A DNA stretch of 28,063 nt, taken from positions 794,605 to 822,667 of the forward strand of contig WELB01000001.1 in the NCBI GenBank assembly GCA_009602725.1. The letters run 5' to 3'. Positions 3,420 through 27,911 of the stretch are shown piece by piece; position 1 is the first letter of the stretch; every line of letters begins with the position of its first letter. Below the pieces are notes generated by a model. It worked only from the letters and a program-made list of their open reading frames with translations. It was not told the DNA's origin and searched no databases. The position numbers were made by a program, and so were the translations under genes. Origin of the DNA: Spirogloea muscicola. Its lineage: Eukaryota > Streptophyta > Zygnematophyceae > Spirogloeales > Spirogloeaceae.

Positions 3420-6400
3420 TCACAGCCTGCTCAGGCCTGGCAATTTGCCAAGGTGCCTGACTCGGTCTCTCAGAATAAATTTTTGTATTTTGCCTGTGGA
3501 AGTCTTTGGCAGCTCCCCAAAAATGACTGACTTGGGAACCTTGTAATGAGCCATATGGGCACGGCAGAAGTCAATCAAGTCCTTAGCTAGAGCCTCTTGA
3601 GATACGGCAGGAGACACCTTCGGGCTCCTACTTTCGCCATTGTGGCAGTCTTTGAGGGCGACAAATGCGCACGGGGTCTCGCCCCAGATGTCATCTGGCC
3701 TGGCGACAACGGCAGCCTCCAGGACTGCAGGATGCTTATACAATGCGCTCTCCACCTGAAAGAGCATTGGATGCTGGTTTAATTGGCAAAGCTTGAATCT
3801 TGCGCGCTACCCTTGCCAGTGACCGCCTTGAATTCAATGGCAGCCTGCATCGTAAGAGCATCAGTCTGCTGAATGGAGTAGGTCTTGTGGAAAACCTCCA
3901 AGCTGCTGATGTTCTCCCCTCCTGAAATTATGATGTCTTTGCTCCTGTCCATGATCTCCACGTATCCATCGGGGTGCATGACAGCCAGGTCGCCAGAGTG
4001 TAACCACCCTCCCTGGCAGACATTGTTACAGTACATGAATGGGGTCTTGCATTCGATCAGTATCATAATCACCTCGCCTGAGCAGGATTGCTAGCTTGTA
4101 AGCCGACAATATTGTTGATGGTTGAGCTTCGAAGGTTACACAGACCTTTGAACTAATATTTGCAACTGCAGCAGACCCATCTCAACTGGGCCAGGCTGCT
4201 AACAACAAGTGTGGTACCACCAAAGGAAGCTGTGCAGTGACTGATAGTTAGTCAGTCAGTTTGGTCATGGGCTTCAACCTTCGTGGCCTCCCTGGTAGCA
4301 CTCTCGTTCTTGAGGTAGCCCTTCATCGTCACGTTGCCCCGAAGCATTATTTCCCCGATAGACTCACCATCCGCTGGCACGGGCTGCATAGTCTTTGGGT
4401 CCATCACCTCCATACGAAACTGGCCAAGATGGCACACGCCCTGCAAGATGGACAAGGTCAAAGATACAGCAGGCAGATCAGCAGAATACCCTCGAGTCGA
4501 GTTCTTGGATGGATGGAGCAACTGTCATCTCCGTCTACGGTGCTTGCAAGTTGGTACTGAATCAGGACAAGGTTCACTGGTCAAGGGGAAGACCAGAAGT
4601 GTCCCACACTGAGAAAAGGAGGCACTCGAAGATGATGCCGCAACTAAGACGCCTCTAGTAAAGAGCATGTAAGCAATTAGCCAAGGACCTGGCGAGCCTT
4701 GAGTCTTCCTCGCTCCCCTGCAGGGAGGGGGTCCCACTCATCTTTCCAGACGCACATGACGCAAGGCCCGTACGTCTCTGTCAAGCCATACGCGTGGAGA
4801 ATGTGGAACCCTATCTCCTCAACTCTGCGGATGACTTGCGAGGGAGGAGCTGCCCCCGCTGTCATGACCTCCACCGCACCGTGCATCCGCCCCCGATCCG
4901 CAACCCCCGCGTTTGCGAGCATGTTGAGCACAACTGCCGAACAAATAGGATGCGGACAAGGTTACTGGCGTGTGAGGGCGAGCAGTCGTGGGTCCTGCAG
5001 CTGACCTGACGAGCTTTCAGCTGCGCTTGCCGATCAGGAGGCAAGGCATCCCACTCCAGCTTCCAGACGCAGACGCTGGCCGGCCCAAAAGTCTCCGTCA
5101 GACCATACGCGTGCGTGACGCAGAAGCCGGCGGCTTTCATCCTGGTGAGTATGGCGGGTGACGGCGGAGCCCCCCCAATGAGGACATCCACTTGCTTGCA
5201 CAGTTTGCCAGAGCCCCAAAGGGAGCTGGCCAGCATGTTGAGCACAACTGTTCACAAGCCACCACTACTCTGTATCACCACCCCCCATCTCATCCTGCTG
5301 TTTGTTTGCCTACTCTCAGTTGCCTGGTCTCTCCAGACTGACAATATGTACTCTACACGGTCACTCCAGATGTGTTGCATGTGAAGCTGATGCTCGATGG
5401 CTGTGCTACGAAATGGGAAGCCTTCTCGTCTGAGTCCTGTAACCTAACCCTTCAATTTCTTGCACAAGGACCATGTTACCGACTTCAAAGAAGCATCAAA
5501 CTTGGGGTGAATGCAATGAAAGCATCGAGACATCACCTGGGGCTCCGCAGAAGTGCGTGACTTTGTGCTGTGCAATGGCTGCAGAACGGACATGTGGGAG
5601 TGCTTTGTCAGATGTTATAAGGTGCAATGCTAAGGTCTCATTGAAAGTACCGCATCTGGCAACTTCCAGGCCACGGGCCACTGCTAGCTTGATGAGATGC
5701 TGCCTCTTCTAAAGCCCAACTTGTACACAGTGTTCAGGAACATGTCAGCCAAGACCCATGAAGCAAAATACGACCAACAACAGTGAGGACCCTTTACCTG
5801 CGTATACGATTTCAGCAGTGACATTGCGGAGGCAGATGTTGGTGCCGGCCAGCGCCGCGAGGGTCCATGGGAAGCACCATCCATTACAGTGGAACATGGG
5901 CAGTGTCCACAAATACACAGCGCCAACCCTCATCTCCCAGCTGAGGGCGTTGGCTAGAGCGTTCAAGTAAGCCCCCCGGTGGTGGTACACAACGCCCTTT
6001 GGCGTTGACGTTGTACCTGACGTGTAATTCAACGCAATCGCCTGCCACTCGTCATCCGGGAGGTTCCAGGCATACTCCTGATCCCCTTCTTCAAGGAATG
6101 CCTCATACTCCGTGTCTGACGCGCTTAAGAGGTCGTCCTCCTGACAACCACCGGCGACATCCTTGTCCTGGATGACCACAATTGGAGGCCATCGTTGGCG
6201 GTCCTGTTTTTCCAGTCATAGGCAGGACCCTGTCAGCAAGCCACTTATCTAGCGCATTCATCCTACTGGTCCATGTGTTGCCAATGTTGTATTTGTACCT
6301 CCTCTCTCTTTCTGAGCTAGAGGATGCCTGCAGACTTCCATAATGCTTGAATACTTGTTGATCGCCAGACAAATTCCTAGCAGCACCTTGCCTGGCTTAG

Positions 6401-7451
6401 ACAAGACTACTCAGTCAGCAAGACGTGCAGGCTCATACATAAAGACGCCCGAAGCATAGAGGTGATAGCGATTGGTAAATGGTTCGACAAGCACGTGTCG
6501 AGTAATGTTTCACAGTATGCATTTATGGCGAGCAATCCTGCCACCCTGGGCCGTCATCAACCTTGGTGAGCAGTTGCAGCGCGTCCGTGACGAGCTTGAG
6601 GAAGCAGGAGTCCACGAATATCAGCTTCGCTTCTCCGTGGTCCAGGAAGTGGGCAATGGTGGGAGAATCAAGGCGGAGGTTGATGGCGTTGAGCACCGCC
6701 CCCGCCATTGGCACTCCAAAGTGCGCCTCGTAAAGTGCTGGGATGTTAGGAGCAACAAAAGCCACCTGTCGCTTGCGGCAAATCTGTCAGATATGCATCT
6801 CTTGTGCTGAATACGAGCCGGCAAGTGGGAAACCCCAGCATGCAGACACATTCTCTGTGACAAGCCTGGCTACCCAAATGACCGACGACTGGCTGCGCCG
6901 CCCCATCGAGTACTGGGTGCGGAACGCAGCGCAGGCTCGACGTCACGTGCAGTGAGCGCGTTCTTCCCTTCTACATCTGCTGCTGCATGAACTCCTCAAG
7001 ACCGTCTGCTCTACTGGGTGTTCTACACAAGGTGTCCTCAGATTGGAACCATTGCAGACAATGAGCTGCAGCAGCTGAGCTTGCTGATGCACACTGGCGG
7101 ACCGGCTTCAAGACCCTCAGTGCGAGCGACCGGGCATGGTGGGAACCCGAGAGGACCCAACAAGGGCAGCATGGCGGCGGAGGTCACCGTGTGCCCGTCA
7201 CCGACACCGCGTCGGCGCAGCGCAGACGCCATGCGGCGGGCGCGCGCGAGCTCGTCGGCCCAGGTGAGGACGCGCGAGCCGTGGACGACGGCCGGCCTCG
7301 TGGGGAAGACGCGCGCCGCGCGCTCCAGGAAGGCCAGCGGCGACAGCGCGACGTGGTTGGCGGCCGACCTCGCCAGCCCGGCCTCGTACATGCCGCCGCC
7401 CGCCGCGGCGCTTGCCGCCGCCGTCGCCGGAGCCTGACGAGCTTCCGCCAT
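3420..7451 (-). CDS. Peroxisomal acyl-activating enzyme (medium/long-chain fatty acyl-CoA synthetase, plant AAE type) with duplicated exon 5
   Basis: The enzyme activates a fatty or carboxylic acid to its acyl-CoA through an acyl-AMP intermediate. Exons on the minus strand are 7451-7188, 6765-6562, 6203-5798, 5578-5537, then either 5247-5006 (5a) or 4933-4689 (5b), then 4440-4279, 4012-3896 and 3755-3420. All junctions are GT..AG and phases match, giving 590 residues with 5a or 591 with 5b, close to the family norm of about 550-570. Motifs in order (5a numbering): P-loop [10 protein letters not shown] (217-226), VTHFCGAP (298-305), GGAPP and HAYGLTET in exon 5, SGDLA (446-450), [15 protein letters not shown] (from 462), and [11 protein letters not shown] with the catalytic Lys near 568. 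The C-terminus SRL is a type 1 peroxisomal targeting signal. Exon 4 is only 42 bases. The ATG at 7451 was chosen because the following residues lead into the family N-terminus; an in-frame start at 7565 (CAT read as ATG) is possible. Exact chain-length preference cannot be read from the sequence. Confidence 0.94.
4689..4933 (-). CDS. Alternative exon 5b of the acyl-CoA synthetase (tandem paralogous exon)
   Basis: This 245-base exon follows an acceptor reading TCGGCAG and ends at CAG before the donor GTCCTT. Like 5a it enters in phase 1 and leaves in phase 0, and it encodes 82 residues. It begins VVLNMLA, has a changed pocket segment [11 protein letters not shown], then [19 protein letters not shown] and LKARQ. 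A hand alignment gives 39 of about 81 positions identical to 5a. No stop or frameshift is present, so it looks functional rather than decayed. Only 72 bases separate it from 5a. Confidence 0.92.
5006..5247 (-). CDS. Alternative exon 5a of the acyl-CoA synthetase
   Basis: This 242-base exon follows an acceptor reading GAACAG and ends at CAG before the donor GTCAGC. It enters in phase 1 (its first two bases complete the Val codon begun in exon 4) and leaves in phase 0. It encodes 81 residues counting the split codon, with VVLNMLA at the start, the canonical [11 protein letters not shown] pocket segment, [11 protein letters not shown] and the end LKARQ. It is the upstream copy of the pair and the closer one to the family pattern GGAPPPPAVL. 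Confidence 0.92.
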
Positions 7452-9708: not shown

Positions 9709-11435
9709 CTACGACAGGCTTGCCCAGTTGTTGCTTGTCCTTGGATCAAGCTCCACGTCATTGAACAGCATCTGCTCCATGTGGACAAGGCTCAGCTGCT
9801 CATTCATGCCTACCCTCTGCGGGCCTGCTGAGTCAGCCAGGAGCTGACCCAGGACGTCCTCAGTACCCTCATCAATGACCATGAGCTCGTCGGAACCGCC
9901 AGCATCTGCATGATGCTGCTGTTGCTGAGGTGCCTCCGGCGCACTCAGCCCAATATCAAGGCCTCTCCATGAGTCTCCCAGCTGATGAGGATGTTGCTGG
10001 GACTGTTGCTGTTGGTGTGCATGAGCAACGGACATGCTGGGGTTTGATGGGTGCTGCTGAGTAGGGGAGGATGAAGGAAAGTTGATCAGGTTGGGTAGTA
10101 GTGGTTGCCGCCCCTCAAAGGCCGGGAAAAGAGTCGAGAGAGGTTGTAGAGGAGCTGACAAGGGTCGCTGCAGCTGGTCAAGGCACACAGCCTGCGCTGG
10201 GTCCAGGCTGCGAGCGGTCTGTAGGGTCGAGGAAAGGGAGCTTGCTCTTTGCAGCGGCGGAAGCTTGATGGGGTCCCAGGTTGTTGGAGGCGGATGGGAG
10301 AATTTGGGGAGGGGAAGGACATTGACAGGCCCACGATGAGAGCTGGTGAAAGCTCTAGTGGACAAGGGTGCAGGCATACTTGGGACCGCAGTTGACGATG
10401 CAGGTGCAAGTGTGGGTGTCGGTGCATATAATGAGGCCGACTCTGTGACAGAGAGGGCACGAGGACTGTATAGGGTTGTCTGACTCTGCAGAGAATCTGA
10501 AGAAGGGCTCTTGAATGAGGAATCTGCAAAGCAGAAAGCAACGGAGGACCTTAAGCTGTAGGTCCAGTCTCATGGCCACAGATATGTTTCTATCTCAGCC
10601 GCCAGACTATCACTAGATCCTGGCAGCTGGCCTCTCAAGACCAGCTGAATGCCAAGGACTGATGAATCACTAGGATCAATGCAATGGCATACCAGACACA
10701 TGTTGCTTGCAGGAGCTCTACGAAAGACCTCGGCCCATGCTACTCACTGTTTGGCGAAGCGAGTTGGCGGAGCGGCTCAGCTGCCTGTGCATTGGCGGTT
10801 TGTGCCCACAACTCTTCCAACTTCCGGCGATGTATTTCAATACGAGACTGTCCAGGACCACAAGGACCAGAAGCTGCTCAGCAAATCTGGTCTCAACAAT
10901 TATCCCAGCCACTAAGTTGGGGCAAACGGGGATACTTGATAGTCAAACATGATGCAAACCAAAGAGAGGTGATGTTTGCGATATATCATATGAGAAACTA
11001 CAATCTCATCTGCACGTCTTGTTGCATACTGAGTAATACTGGGCCAGCAACACAATACGGTCCAATACCTGCATTTGCACTTGCTGCTGCAAGAGTTGTT
11101 GAATCTGCCCGACCATCTTGTCAGCTGTGGTTGCAGTAGAAATGGCTGGCTGGTAGTCACAGGGATCATTTGACACTTGCGGAGCTGATTCAGTCATTGA
11201 GCGAAGCGGCAGGTGACCGGCCTCTGCAGCAGGTGGCAAGCAAGGCCCTGCCTGCGAGATTGTCTGCGGAGGCTGAGTCTGATGTGCTTGCCCCTGTTGC
11301 CGCAACAGCTGGTGCGTTGGCTGTAGGTGCTGCTGCTGCTCCTGCTGCTGTGGCTGCAGATTGTGGTACTGGGGTTGCATGTGCTGGTGCGGCTGAAAGT
11401 GCGATTGGCTCTGCGAATGCAGCTGTTGCTGCTGC

Positions 11436-11471
<36 letters not shown>

Positions 11472-13244
11472 CGCTGCTGCTGCTGCAAGAAGGGTAATTG
11501 CTGCCGTGTTGCCGGCTGCTGCATTGGTGGCAGCTGTTGTGGTAATTGCAGTGACTGTGGGAGCACTGGTGGAGGACTCAGCGGAGGCGACGGCAGCAGC
11601 TGCTGCAGCGGCAGCCCCTGCGACTGCTCGTGCTCCTGATGCAGCTGCATTTGCATCGGCGGCGAGGGCAGAGCATGGCGTGGCGAGCCATTGAGGTCCA
11701 CGCTGCAGGCGCTGCTGCCTATGTCCTGGTTGTCTGCTGAGCTGCTGGCCCCAGGGCACCTGCTGTGTGAGGCGCGGTACTTCTGGAGGAAGCTCTTGAT
11801 CTGCGAGATTGTCAAGTTTGGGACAGTCTTCACGAGCACGCTGTGGATCATCCTCGGCGTGGCGCTCGCGCCGCCCACCTGCGCCATGGCGGCCTTGAAC
11901 TGCATGCGCATCTCGTCCGTCCACTTGGCACGCTTCTTCTGGCGCTGCTGCCAGAAGGCCGGAGGGAGCGCAGCCGCCTGACCGATGAGCTCCTGCACCA
12001 TAGAGTGCTGCGCAATCGCCGTGGTGGCCTGAGGGGAATCTAATGGCTGCCGGTGACCCACGCTGCCGCTGTGGTTGCAGGCTGCCGTCACCGTGGCGTC
12101 CAAGGAGCCTGGCGGGTGCAGAGCCCTGCTCTCATACCAGCCACAGCCTGCTGGCCGCGATGAGTACTCATGAGAGCTGTGCTCCTCAGCTGCTGCCGAC
12201 GCCGCCGCCGATGCCGGGATGCACGCCCGCATGCAGAAAGAGCAGGCGTTGGGCAGCAGTCGATGATGTGGGTGGCCAGTAGGTGGGCCGAGCGGCAAAG
12301 CATGCTCAGCAATGGTGGACTGCGACAGTGACAGCGGCCTGCTGCAATGGCTCGCCGACGCCGCTGGCAGCGCGACCTTGCCCGGAGTGGGCCGGCTGTC
12401 GCGGACGGCGCCGCTGCAGACCATCCTGCGGCTGGGGCGGAGAGAAGATGCTCGCTCGTCCAGGTCCATGCCAAGGGACGGACAAGCAAAGGTAGCTGCG
12501 CTCTTCCCGCCGCCGCCGCCGACCAACTTGTCCTTCGCATGACGTCGTTGCTGTGCCGTCGTCAGGTTCTTGCCCTTGTCCTTGGGCCTCGCCGTCCTCT
12601 GAGGGGCTGACGACTCCGCAGCCTCCTCACAGCTGCCGCTCACTTCGCCTGCGCCAGCTCTGCATGACAAAGGCAGCGGCCTGCCACAGGGAGCAGACCC
12701 CTGGGCGAAGCAGCAGCTGCTGGTGGAAACCGCAGGCTCTGCCGCACCGGCTGCCAGCCTCATGCAGGCGTTGCCTGTGATGGAGCTCCGTGGCTGGCAA
12801 GAGTCGGGCAAGACAGCCAGAGAGTGAGAGGTAAAGACGAGCGCTCCACTCCACTCAAGCCGTGGCTAAACAGGCAGGTCCCCATCTAAAGCCTGACTGG
12901 TGGCAAACGCACATGCCACTGCACCTATATGCCAAGCTCAGAGGGAACACGATCCCGGTAAGAACAGCGGCCACCCAAACTGATGCGCAAGCCGGACAAG
13001 CCGGGGCAAAAGTCCGAGCTTCAGCGGCTCGCACCAGGGCGAGCTCGGACTCGGCCTCGCTGTCGCTGTCGCTGGAGTGCACCGTCTCCGGCGTGCCGTG
13101 CCCAGTCTCCGGCGTGCTCGGCTGCGACTGGAGGTCGTCGTCAGGCCCTGCCGCGTCGGCGACGCGGGGGGCGTCCCTGCGCGGCGAGCCTGCTTCGGGC
13201 TGCGCCAGCAGCGGGCGCCCGGCCTGGCGCCCGACGCGGCCCAT
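9709..13244 (-). CDS. GARP/SHAQKYF-class Myb-like transcription factor with polyglutamine tract
   Basis: The core is a single Myb-like DNA-binding repeat, KKRAKWTDEM ... ATPRMIHSVL ... ISQIKSFLQKYR (about 11943-11771), matching the GARP (G2-like/B-type ARR) pattern, with SFLQKYR where plants have SHLQKYR. Proposed exons are 13244-13035, 12793-11069, 10847-10748 and 10523-9709. Phases 0, 0 and 1 agree and give 949 residues, with the Myb repeat near 355-412. Exon 1 is the least certain: it is acidic and Ser-rich (SSDSDSEAESELAL) and its ATG lies six bases from a poly-A run. If it is wrong, translation may start at the ATG at 12811 inside a longer exon. After the repeat come Pro/Gln-rich stretches with a run of 16 Gln (about 11425-11472), then a likely coiled coil spanning the second splice (QIQQLLQQQVQMQ joined to SRIEIHRRKLEELW), then a Ser/Pro-rich tail with acidic segments. 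It presumably acts in the nucleus; the target genes are unknown. Confidence 0.86.
11421..11485 (-). repeat. CAG microsatellite encoding polyglutamine
   Basis: The coding strand has an almost pure CAG/CAA run interrupted once by CGG, encoding four Gln, one Arg and 16 Gln. It lies in exon 2 of the GARP-like gene, in a wider Gln/His/Pro-rich region. Such runs usually vary in length between strains. Confidence 0.9.
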
Positions 13245-13248
13245 GCCC

Positions 13249-13402
<154 letters not shown>

Positions 13403-23820: not shown

Positions 23821-26800
23821 CTAAGTGGGAATGACAGGGACAGTAGACGAGCGCCGAGCTCTTCGCTCATGGGTATCCCGAGCTGGTCTCCTCATCCTTT
23901 GCCGCCATGAGACTCCCTGCAGAGCGGCATCTTCGTCCTCAAGCAGTTCATCGAGCTTCCCAATGTTGCCGATACCTTCTTCCCGCACCTCATCCGCCAT
24001 TGATGGCACTTCTGTCCTGCGATCTTGCTCATCAGCAACCTCCACTGACAACCTCTCCACACTGGCAGCAGCCTGAGAGGGCTTGTGGCTGGACCTTGAG
24101 TTGAGGTGATTGTCCCCATTGGCAGCCACCACCTCCTGCTCAGCAGGTCTTAGGTCTGCCGCCACTGGCCCCAGGTCTCTCAACAGGCCCTCTGCCTCAC
24201 CTGGATGGATCTCCTCCTGAGGTGCTGGCTCAGAGGCAGGCGTCGAAGCCAGCTGCCCTGCGTGATCTGCTCCAGCCACGAGCACAGCCCCTTGTTCTGC
24301 AGGTGCTGAAGCAGGCTCTTCTCTGGGGTACTGCATGATGACCTCCTCTGACTTGCGGTACCGCAGCTGCTTGTGCAGCGACAGCTTGAGTGCAGGGATC
24401 TTGTTGGCAATCGCTCGCCATGTCATCTGCGTGGCATCCCCGGGCCAGCTGGGAAAGCGGTACTCAAAGTGCTGCTCCACCTGCAGCAGCACGTGCATCA
24501 ATAGAATCCCCGGCCTGAAAGTCACTACCCCGGGATCATCAATCACAACACAACCCAACAGATGTTCTTCCAGAGCTTCTCAAACACAAGTCACACAAGA
24601 GCAAGCCGAGAACCATCAATCCATGGCCTTAAGACACTCCCCTTAGCTACTAGGTTTCATATTATACAGCGTGAAGGGCGCACACTGCATGCCCCATGTG
24701 CCTCTGTTGTTGCCTGGTAGTGAAGGCAGCTGTTAGCACCTACAAAGATATCGTGAAACCCTGAACCCTATCTCCTAGATTCGAGGAGGGCATGGCCGGG
24801 CTGGGGTGTTTGTCACCTGCTTCAGGCGATTCCAGAAAGTGGTCCATTCCTCTCCGTCAATGCCCCGCAAAAGTTGCACCAGGTGCCCTGGCCGCACGGC
24901 ATCCTCTGCTCGTACAAAGACGCAAAATTCGCTGCAAGTGGAAACACGGCCATAAGTGAGGAGGACACAAAGACCCAATCTGCAGGCCACAGCAAATATA
25001 TGACAAAATGTGGCAGAGCTAAGTCGGAGAGGATTGCAAAAGGTTGCAAATGACCAGATCAATTAATATATTTTATTGGAATCAATACTGCTCTAAGATC
25101 AATAGACCGTCGACTTGCACCTGTAATCCAGGAAGTCTTCAAAAGGAAGCTCGATATCGTCAGATATTATGACAGGAACGCAATGGCTGACGATGGCGTC
25201 AAATAATCGGTTGGAAGAAGGTGTGTCGCCAGCAAGATGCAGACAGAACTTGGATGACCGCATGCCGCTGGTCGCACTACGGATGCCGGTGCGCTGTGCA
25301 GCCAGCCCAATGAGTAGGTGAGCATGACTGGCAAGACCTAGCCAAGCATGCAGTTGAGCAGTGCATTTGGAGCAGCGCAAGCTTCTGATGTGATGGCCGG
25401 CTGAAGCTTGCTCAGCTGTCCACTGCTGCCAATCAACCACAAGAACATGCAAATCGCAAGTGTCGTTTGATTTGTCCCAAGTCGAAAGACCCTGCTGAAT
25501 AAGCTTGTCAACTATGTGTTCTGCAACTGTGCTATGTGCCAGGACGAAGCTGGCCCCCCGGGGTCAACAGCAGACCTGGGTGTTTCCGGTGGAGAACTGA
25601 ACGCCCGTCTCGTTCTTGAGCAAGTCATACAACCTTTGGCGTATGACACCTCCCTGCCAAGTTGCAAAGCCAGCAGATGGGATTGACTGCACTAAGGTAA
25701 CATGCGGGGGAACCAAGGTTTTGATGCAAGCTGGTAACGAACCAGAGCTGACGCAAAGTGGTTGTATTCTTGCCCTGCTCCACTGCAACAACCTGTAGCC
25801 TTGTTACTAGCTTGCTGACTTTGACCGCTACATCGAGTTGCCAGCACATGACTGAGAGCAGAGCCCGGCACCAGCAGAAAGTGCCTGAGTTGCAGCAGAT
25901 TCATGATGGACAAGTGAGTCTCGGAAGCAGTTGGTATCGGCTTCTACCTCCTTGCGGACAATTGCGCCCTGGAAGAAGAGCAACAGGTGCCGATCCTGGT
26001 AGCCATTGTAGTCCTCTTTGAAGGTGCCAATGACGTGCTTGTAGGGAGCGACAACGTCCTTCTCCATGTTTGCCACCGACTCATTGTAGCGGCCGAAATC
26101 GGCAACGACAAACATAGCTGCACCCAGCTGCATAAACAGATCTTCTATTCAGTCTACTGATTGTTGTGTTGTCCTTTACACTGCAGATCTGCCCATGACT
26201 ATTCAAGGCCATGACTGGACCAGCCAAGCGCGAGCGCACCTGTTCACGGACGATGTGCATGCTGTTCGGGTGGTGGATGACCAGCAGGTGGTCCTGCCCC
26301 TCATAAAGGTGCCACGTTGCGGTGGAGTTCAGGTACTTGACCAGCTTCAGCTGCAGCTCCTCGTTCCTGTCCTGGAGGAACGGAGAGGGCAGACCTGTCA
26401 GTGCGAGCCTGTCAAGCTGACCACTAGGGAGACAGCTTCACCTGCAGCGGGCAGTGCCGACGTTCCCATATAACCTGGACCTCATCCTGGCTATTGTCCA
26501 CCAGGAGTGTAGCCTGCCCTCCGTCTAAAGACAACTCCGGAAACAATTGACAGGAAGACGTAGTTGGGGCCTGCCAAGGACAGAGGGTCAGAGCACTACT
26601 CCTGGTTCCAGAAGCAGGCTTTCCAGCTAACGAGTTGCTCACGAGAGGAACAATCTCATTGGTGCCTCCCGAGGTGACGTTGGCGGGCTGAGCCATGGTC
26701 GTCCGATTCCCTGGCGCCGTGGTGTACCGGTTGTACGCCAGAGATGCGAAGAAGGGCACAAGCAGGATGTCGGCTTGCTCGGGGTCCGGCAAGCGCACGG

Positions 26801-27911
26801 CCACACATGGGTTGCGGCGCTCCTCCATGTCCGACGTCAGGACGTCCACGGTCAGCCAGTACTCGGGGCTGTGCTGCTGGTACATGGCCCCCGGGTACCT
26901 GCACCGCGCGTTGCCACCGCATGTTATGGAGGAGTTGGAGGCCGTCAAATCAGCACCGCTGCCGGCAGCAACAGCAGCAGCAATGGAGCCACTCATGACC
27001 ACACCTTGGAATGTCGGAGGCGTTGACAGGAAGGCGGTTTATGTACTCTTTCTGCAGCATCCCAAAGTTGAACTCCCCCGGCAGGTCGTACATGTACACC
27101 TTGAGCGCCGCGCTGGCCACGTCGCAGGACGCCGGCTTGGTCAGCACGCCGGCGAAGGGATCCGGTTCCTCCTTGCGCTGCCGCCGGCTCTTCGACGTCA
27201 TCGCTTCTCCGACCGCTTCCAGCGGCCGCCGCACGCCAAATGCCCATGAGCGCGTCGGCCTGCCAGCAGTCGGGTGCGTCAGTCCCAGCGCCCAGGCACT
27301 CAGCCTGAGCATCGCTTGCGCGTGAGACTGGGTAGCAACTCAAGCTGCGCTCATGCACAGAGCTGCCGGCTCAAAGGCAGCACTGTTGGCAGACTTGGCA
27401 CACACAGTGACATGGGTCCCTATCGAGCATGCCGAGAGCAACAATGCGCAATCGCTGCCGGACAGGTGTGCTCGCGGCCACAAGGCCGAGCTGCCTCATC
27501 GCCATGACTCAGTGACGTCGTTGAGGAGCCTCTGCCAGTGCTGCCGAGCCGAGCTCCTCGGCATCATCACCTGGTGGTGGCCCGCGTCCTGCCCGCCGCA
27601 AAGAGCACGGAGTCGCGGTCTTGGGCGATGGCGTCCTCGCGGCGGCTCTGGGCGAAGATGAGGCCGCTGCCCAGGAGGCCCAGCGCCACGGCCGCCAGCA
27701 GCCACATGCGGCGGGAGCGGCGGTCTGGGAGGTCGTGCGCCTTGGGCGAGCTGCGGTAGTGCGCGCCGTCGCCGCCGCCCTTCGCGTGGCGGCCGCTCTT
27801 GGCCACCGCCATGGCGCCGGAGAAGGTCAGGAGGGTGCGCTTCACGAGGCCGCCTCCGCCGCCGCCGCCTCCGTCGCCGGGGCCGGTGTCGGCGCCCCGG
27901 ACGACGGCCAT
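23821..27911 (-). CDS. Exostosin-family glycosyltransferase (GT47), Golgi type II membrane protein
   Basis: It probably transfers a sugar to a cell-wall or matrix polysaccharide in the Golgi; the sugar is not determinable, and plant ARAD/IRX-type enzymes are the nearest family I recall. Exons are 27911-27571, 27259-27005, 26898-26442, 26371-26240, 26127-25948, 25653-25576, 25293-25121, 24931-24817 and 24480-23821. All are GT..AG with matching phases, giving 796 residues. An N-terminal anchor [18 protein letters not shown] (69-86) follows a Gly-rich, Arg-rich cytosolic segment. The exostosin domain then runs from [13 protein letters not shown] (about 167) through [86 protein letters not shown] and [18 protein letters not shown] to FRFPSWPGD-like sequence ([10 protein letters not shown]) near 584-593. 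The residues after NRY up to DRNEELQ (about 95) are longer than usual and contain a possible 72-base in-frame intron. The last 150 residues are a low-complexity acidic/Ala-rich tail not typical of the family. Confidence 0.92.
26571..26642 (-). other. Possible in-frame retained intron (exitron) inside GT47 exon 3
   Basis: Within the coding exon the minus strand has a donor-like GTGAGC after CTC and an acceptor-like TTGGCAG before GCC. Both are in phase 0 and 72 bases (24 codons) apart, with no stop inside. Splicing it out would shorten the unusually long insert and keep the frame. A confirmed-looking neighbouring intron (26372-26441) is just as short at 70 bases. Confidence 0.35.

Follow-up and report, generated by a model that had tools for sequence, protein, structure and literature searches.

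Mutually exclusive exons that exchange part of an acyl-CoA synthetase have been described in human ACSL6 and ACSL1, where an exon pair swaps the fatty-acid Gate domain (PMC1543647). The portions of the reports on which we draw state that ACSL6 isoforms whose Gate motifs differ also differ in their activity (PMC2868784), and that variants without both exons have been reported for ACSL1 and ACSL6 (PMC1543647, PMC2868784). For green algae, as far as the excerpted sources go, few mutually exclusive exons have been described: one case is verified in Volvox, the exons 4 and 5 of Volvox carteri cyn23, which are mutually exclusive, 106 nt each and both detected by RT-PCR (PMC4378016), and the excerpted text of a Haematococcus long-read survey gives zero mutually exclusive exons (PMC6330051). 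According to the parts of a human survey cited here, 377 (60%) of the exclusive-exon clusters (629 by the figure legend) contain exons not divisible by three, and 57 (9%) have a donor-to-branch distance below 50 bp (PMC5740500).

Here, we describe in Spirogloea muscicola an acyl-CoA synthetase gene with two tandem versions of one internal exon, 5a and 5b, which form a real exon pair, kept in three copies of the gene and very probably mutually exclusive. The arrangement resembles that of ACSL6 and ACSL1, as reported in the excerpts, in that an exclusive exon pair swaps a substrate-handling segment of an acyl-CoA synthetase, and we take all of these enzymes to belong to the same ANL superfamily. 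It differs from them in what is exchanged: in ACSL6 and ACSL1 the gate motif is swapped, whereas here the gate-like motif is constitutive and the segment from the GGAPP loop to the A5 motif is replaced. The swapped exon holds no gate motif of the ACSL type; the gate-like motif lies in exon 3, where it aligns to VPMFHVNAWC of 1ult, presumably the Thermus gate motif. Unlike in ACSL1 and ACSL6, skipping both exons here breaks the frame, and the enzyme subfamily and the lineage are also different. Like the Volvox pair, 5a and 5b are, very probably, exclusive exons, with lengths that are not multiples of three, and the cyn23 exons, too, encode two versions of a segment, in that case a possible ligand-binding one (PMC4378016). 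However, cyn23 is cyclophilin-related, with 13 residue differences between its exons in the part of the report considered, whereas the present pair belongs to a synthetase, has 40 fixed differences and is predicted from genomic sequence. Set against the human clusters, which are transcript-supported in the cited excerpt, the present locus has exon lengths not divisible by three and possibly a short donor-to-branch distance. The first-pass annotation knew of no described case in algal acyl-CoA synthetases, and we likewise found no algal acyl-CoA synthetase with such an exon pair in the open-licence literature; a similar animal precedent does exist in ACSL6 and ACSL1. The kind of exon pair is already known, and the enzyme subfamily, the lineage and the swapped segment are new as far as literature searches reach.

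The window, by which we mean the whole 28,063-nt stretch of DNA that was analysed, comprises positions 794605-822667 of contig C1 in an assembly of 153 Mb and 471 contigs, which we searched with isoform 5b. All exon boundaries were inferred from splice sites and family homology, and the resulting gene model reads as follows in window coordinates:

Exon 1, 7188..7451, minus strand: ATG and synthetase N-terminus; located from its splice site and the alignment with the family; found in each of the three copies.
Exon 2, 6562..6765, minus strand: located in the same way and likewise found in each copy.
Exon 3, 5798..6203, minus strand: constitutive; P-loop-like motif [12 protein letters not shown] and gate-like motif [10 protein letters not shown].
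Exon 4, 5537..5578, minus strand: 42 nt, phase 1 at its end.
Alternative exon 5a, 5006..5247, minus strand: 242 nt, IGGAPPSP ... YGLTETFGP; the derived version; own Pfam AMP-binding score 30.8 bits (cut-off 29.9).
Intron between 5a and 5b, 4934..5005, minus strand: 72 nt, equally long in every copy; candidate branch-site A at a donor distance of 33 or 44 nt.
Alternative exon 5b, 4689..4933, minus strand: 245 nt, TAGAAPPSQ ... YGLTETYGP; near the family norm; own Pfam AMP-binding score 33.2 bits (cut-off 29.9).
Exon 6, 4279..4440, minus strand: phase 0 at its start.
Exon 7, 3896..4012, minus strand: hinge region [15 protein letters not shown]; zero amino-acid changes among the three copies.
Exon 8, 3420..3755, minus strand: GKIQK lysine region, C-terminal SRL and stop.

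The P-loop-like, gate-like, hinge and GKIQK segments of exons 3, 7 and 8 are named after known motifs. Scored against PRK08162 (NCBIfam NF006020, cut-off 677), the protein reaches 833.6 bits with 5a and 847.8 bits with 5b, so that both isoforms pass, and the gene most likely encodes a bacterial-type (PRK08162) acyl-CoA synthetase with a peroxisomal-type C-terminus. The C-terminal SRL, a PTS1-like tripeptide, is found in three of three copies. This fits the peroxisomal isozymes proposed in the first-pass annotation, and a peroxisomal location would be predicted for both isoforms.

Exons 5a and 5b are flanked by AG and GT, differ in length by one codon and both run from phase 1 to phase 0, and our derivation returned the exon limits and phases previously proposed. 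With the phase-1 G included, 5a encodes 81 and 5b 82 amino acids, both of the form VVLNMLA...LKARQ, and the alignment gives 40 identical residues of 82 (49%; BLASTP E = 2e-28 in a single comparison), close to an earlier hand count of about 48%. If 5a were joined to 5b, the first stop would be codon 410 of the joined reading, at window 4864-4862 as counted from the exon lengths, and if both were skipped a stop would follow at codon 331; the two frameshifts had been predicted and are confirmed. This frame lock, with early stops when both exons or neither are included, holds in all three gene copies and bears out the proposal that a functional mRNA could use only one of the two exons.

Two more copies of the gene are present on contigs C159 and C70, each with a 5a-like and a 5b-like exon. 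In all three copies both isoforms are without internal stop and every internal intron is GT...AG, in agreement with the earlier view that neither exon shows decay. The copies differ pairwise by 6-13 bases in each alternative exon, and their introns have diverged. A neighbouring stretch, window 26424-27249, also occurs threefold, on C1, C159 and C70, with 91% and 89% identity to the window; since the gene trio and the neighbouring trio lie on the same contigs, we regard them as syntenic, diverged copies of a chromosomal segment. Together, the region 3420-7451 and 26424-27249 (loci L041, L042, L124 and L125) provides two stretches about 89-91% alike or more across copies. The three copies suggest a polyploid or hybrid genome, or else a mixed culture or strain mixture. 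Because the pair, its phases, its splice dinucleotides and the early stops recur in two further gene copies, the pair goes beyond chance. Outside the three copies, the exon-5 region is spanned by matches on C4, on C7 and on C1 away from the present gene; among the matches listed these have 26-28% identity and are other superfamily members. Three AMP-binding matches on C7, C1 and C4 are near-equal and look like another trio. At the exon-4 donor (window 5536), two copies have GTGATG and the C159 copy has GTAGGT, the alignment showing six extra bases.

Are both alternative exons maintained as coding sequence? We compared changes among the copies on a three-copy star tree, with one-sided tests and the neutral fraction calibrated on intron changes. 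Exon 5a has 9 nonsynonymous and 10 synonymous changes (P = 0.023, one of two tests, on 19 changes only) and exon 5b has 6 and 9 (P = 0.0073, on 15 changes only), which indicates purifying selection on each alternative exon, with both behaving like coding sequence in use, at small counts. The other exons pooled (52 nonsynonymous, 90 synonymous) show no difference from 5a (Fisher P = 0.45) or from 5b (P = 0.79), and summed pairwise pN/pS is 0.32 for 5a, 0.23 for 5b and 0.19 for the remaining exons.

The intron that separates 5a from 5b has a constant length in the three copies, whereas the other seven introns each vary in length in at least one copy. Of its 72 ungapped sites 5 vary, as against 301 of 1884 for the remaining introns (P = 0.021 in a one-sided Fisher test, for one of eight introns, chosen by position). 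As a yardstick of length we used 26 hand-picked gaps between consecutive light-harvesting PF00504 exon matches, taken as approximate introns; the assembly contains 68 such exon matches, and the PF00504 model also matches one control, Synechococcus. Taken with the introns of the gene, these matches make a photosynthetic eukaryote very probable as the source, which is consistent with a green alga. The intron is shorter than all 26 gaps (77-313 nt), and the neighbouring pairs that were left out are at least 123 nt apart. Competing RNA pairing between the introns around the pair was unsupported, with duplex-energy z values from −1.99 to 1.03 in nine comparisons of 60 simple shuffles each.

The two versions stand at different distances from the family. 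Our set of 80 relatives comprises 80 of the 592 confirmed loci on genome contigs plus two viral-contig loci, minus L053 and L057 (frame below 500 residues). All 80 genome-contig loci, among the matches listed, carry bacterial titles, and no algal relatives were seen among the listed matches from genome and viral contigs; the viral-contig scans yielded three loci altogether, L009, L010 and L126, the last of them a short and weak match. Median identity to the 80 listed relatives is 51% for 5b and 41% for 5a, with 5b the closer in 78 of 80, and of the 27 columns of the exon-5 segment that are at least 90% conserved among them, 5b keeps 23 and 5a 19. Of the columns invariant in all 80 listed relatives, 5a departs at two, with Ser for Pro (as aligned) and Phe for Tyr, and 5b at one, with Gly for Ala. 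The invariant Tyr, located after YGLTET, is Tyr in 5b; in 5a it is Phe in the window copy and Leu in both other copies. On the strength of identities and conserved columns we regard 5b as family-like and 5a as derived.

There are also nine columns at which 5a and 5b share a residue that departs from the consensus of the listed relatives. The shared residue is rare at four of these (327 V, 5% of relatives; 342 G, 0%; 375 A, 1%; 389 V, 5%) and present in 7-40% of listed relatives at the other five. This pattern suggests that the duplication took place within the gene's own lineage. A tree built from 81 rows and 82 columns of the exon-5 segment leaves 5a and 5b ungrouped and places neither reliably; a grouping of the two is neither supported nor rejected (p-AU 0.444, on 82 columns only).

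How might the swapped segment bear on substrate? From the passages cited, the myristoyl pocket of Thermus LACS is lined by Gly301, Tyr324, Gly325 and Thr327, and Trp414 of acetyl-CoA synthetase sits at the Gly325 position (PMC6122825), such a Trp being a wall that limits acyl size (PMC8383264). All four Thermus residues align inside exon 5 (1ult alignments, positions counted by eye), which partly supports the first-pass view that the segment helps form the acyl pocket, with the reservation that the versions differ at the Gly301 position only: there 5a has Gly and 5b has the Ala that 97% of listed relatives also carry, and the equivalents of Tyr324, Gly325 and Thr327 are identical in 5a and 5b. 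The same annotation had invoked the Trp of the A5 region as a determinant of acyl size. This does not carry over, as the equivalent position is Gly in both exons; the Trp argument therefore cannot separate 5a from 5b, and we rejected the Trp wall as the discriminating residue. Three further fixed differences, Ile/Thr, Pro/Ala and Ser/Pro, lie on the loop or close to it. Across the three copies 5a and 5b have 40 fixed differences in total, spread along the exon; at 39 positions all six exons agree. Because only one of the four named pocket residues differs, a different acid preference is something that we infer; it is plausible, and substrate switching is a reasonable hypothesis with chances about evenly balanced.

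Several other readings of the locus have to be weighed. A misassembly that placed two paralogous exons in one gene is barely credible: the assembly is imperfect, with an A run and an N gap elsewhere in the window, but the same arrangement stands on three diverged contigs with base differences in every exon, and among the matches listed the other exon-5-region matches of the genome reach no more than 28% identity, so that such an artefact is unlikely. One of the exons might instead be decaying, a relic of tandem duplication that splicing has ceased to use, and 5a, farther from the family, would be the candidate. The absence of stops, frameshifts and broken splice sites from either exon in all three copies and the excess of synonymous changes in both make this very improbable. 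Somewhat better placed, and still unlikely, is the idea that 5b makes the enzyme and 5a serves as an off-switch, inclusion of both or neither leading to mRNA decay and tuning the amount of enzyme, not its type. The early stops of both-in and both-out mRNAs in all copies would suit it, as would the loss of some invariant residues from 5a and its drift at one of them; a relaxed or weakly used exon 5a would equally show the lost invariant Tyr and Pro and the drift at the Tyr. Yet nothing would oblige a switch exon to encode a good enzyme segment, whereas 5a is an exact in-frame replacement that has stayed open, kept YGLTE and the splice phases, and shows the signature of selection given above.

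The strongest of these alternatives, doubtful in our judgement and nevertheless to be taken seriously, accepts that both exons are translated and places the difference in stability, kinetics of the CoA step, partner binding or regulation, not in the acid used. The change may have nothing to do with acyl choice, given that the 40 fixed differences are scattered along the exon and that three of the four literature pocket residues, the Trp-wall position among them, are the same in both versions. Against it stand the Gly301 equivalent and the Ile/Thr, Pro/Ala and Ser/Pro differences at the acyl-pocket loop, all fixed in three copies.

We consider it probable that 5a and 5b are mutually exclusive, with 5b family-like and 5a derived, and that they likely yield two isozymes differing in acid preference or kinetics. 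Tandem duplication would be the most likely source of the pair. Each functional mRNA would then carry one exon of the pair, frameshift and early stop following when both are included or both are skipped, and the 72-nt intron may be too short for the spliceosome to join 5a to 5b easily: with 33 and 44 nt between the donor and the candidate branch-site adenosines, the distance would fall under the 50-bp steric limit given in the excerpted human survey (PMC5740500). The two predicted proteins would share P-loop, gate-like motif, hinge and catalytic lysine region and differ in a piece of about 80 residues with the GGAPP loop and the A5 motif, part of the adenylate/acyl pocket, most likely resulting in isozymes of different acid preference or kinetics. 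The splicing behaviour, regulation and altered substrate use ascribed here to 5a and 5b are predictions from the genomic letters.

Elsewhere in the window, positions 13250-13402 hold 122 consecutive A and then a gap of 31 N, which probably reflects a limit of the assembly or of the sequencing. Open frames with similarity to Exostosin GT47, perhaps one gene, lie at 25102-27038 on the minus strand, with a match at 25102-25563 (E = 6.8e-24) and a weak piece at 26427-27038 (E = 0.0024, under the curated cut-off). A 619-aa open frame with long glutamine runs, 11006-12865 on the minus strand, has zero Pfam matches at E up to 0.01.

In conclusion, one algal gene, in three diverged copies, may provide two peroxisomal-type synthetases in which exon choice swaps the acyl/adenylate pocket and shifts the acids that are activated by splicing, not by separate genes, a proposal whose chances we rate a little below even. 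The exon pair would amount to a chimera experiment made by nature, bearing on the question of which segment determines the acid that is used, and gene models that keep one exon of the pair would miss an isozyme. If the proposal is true, the alga retunes the pocket of a metabolic enzyme by splicing, and acyl-CoA synthetases would have another use of exon swapping, at a part of the active site other than in the animal case.
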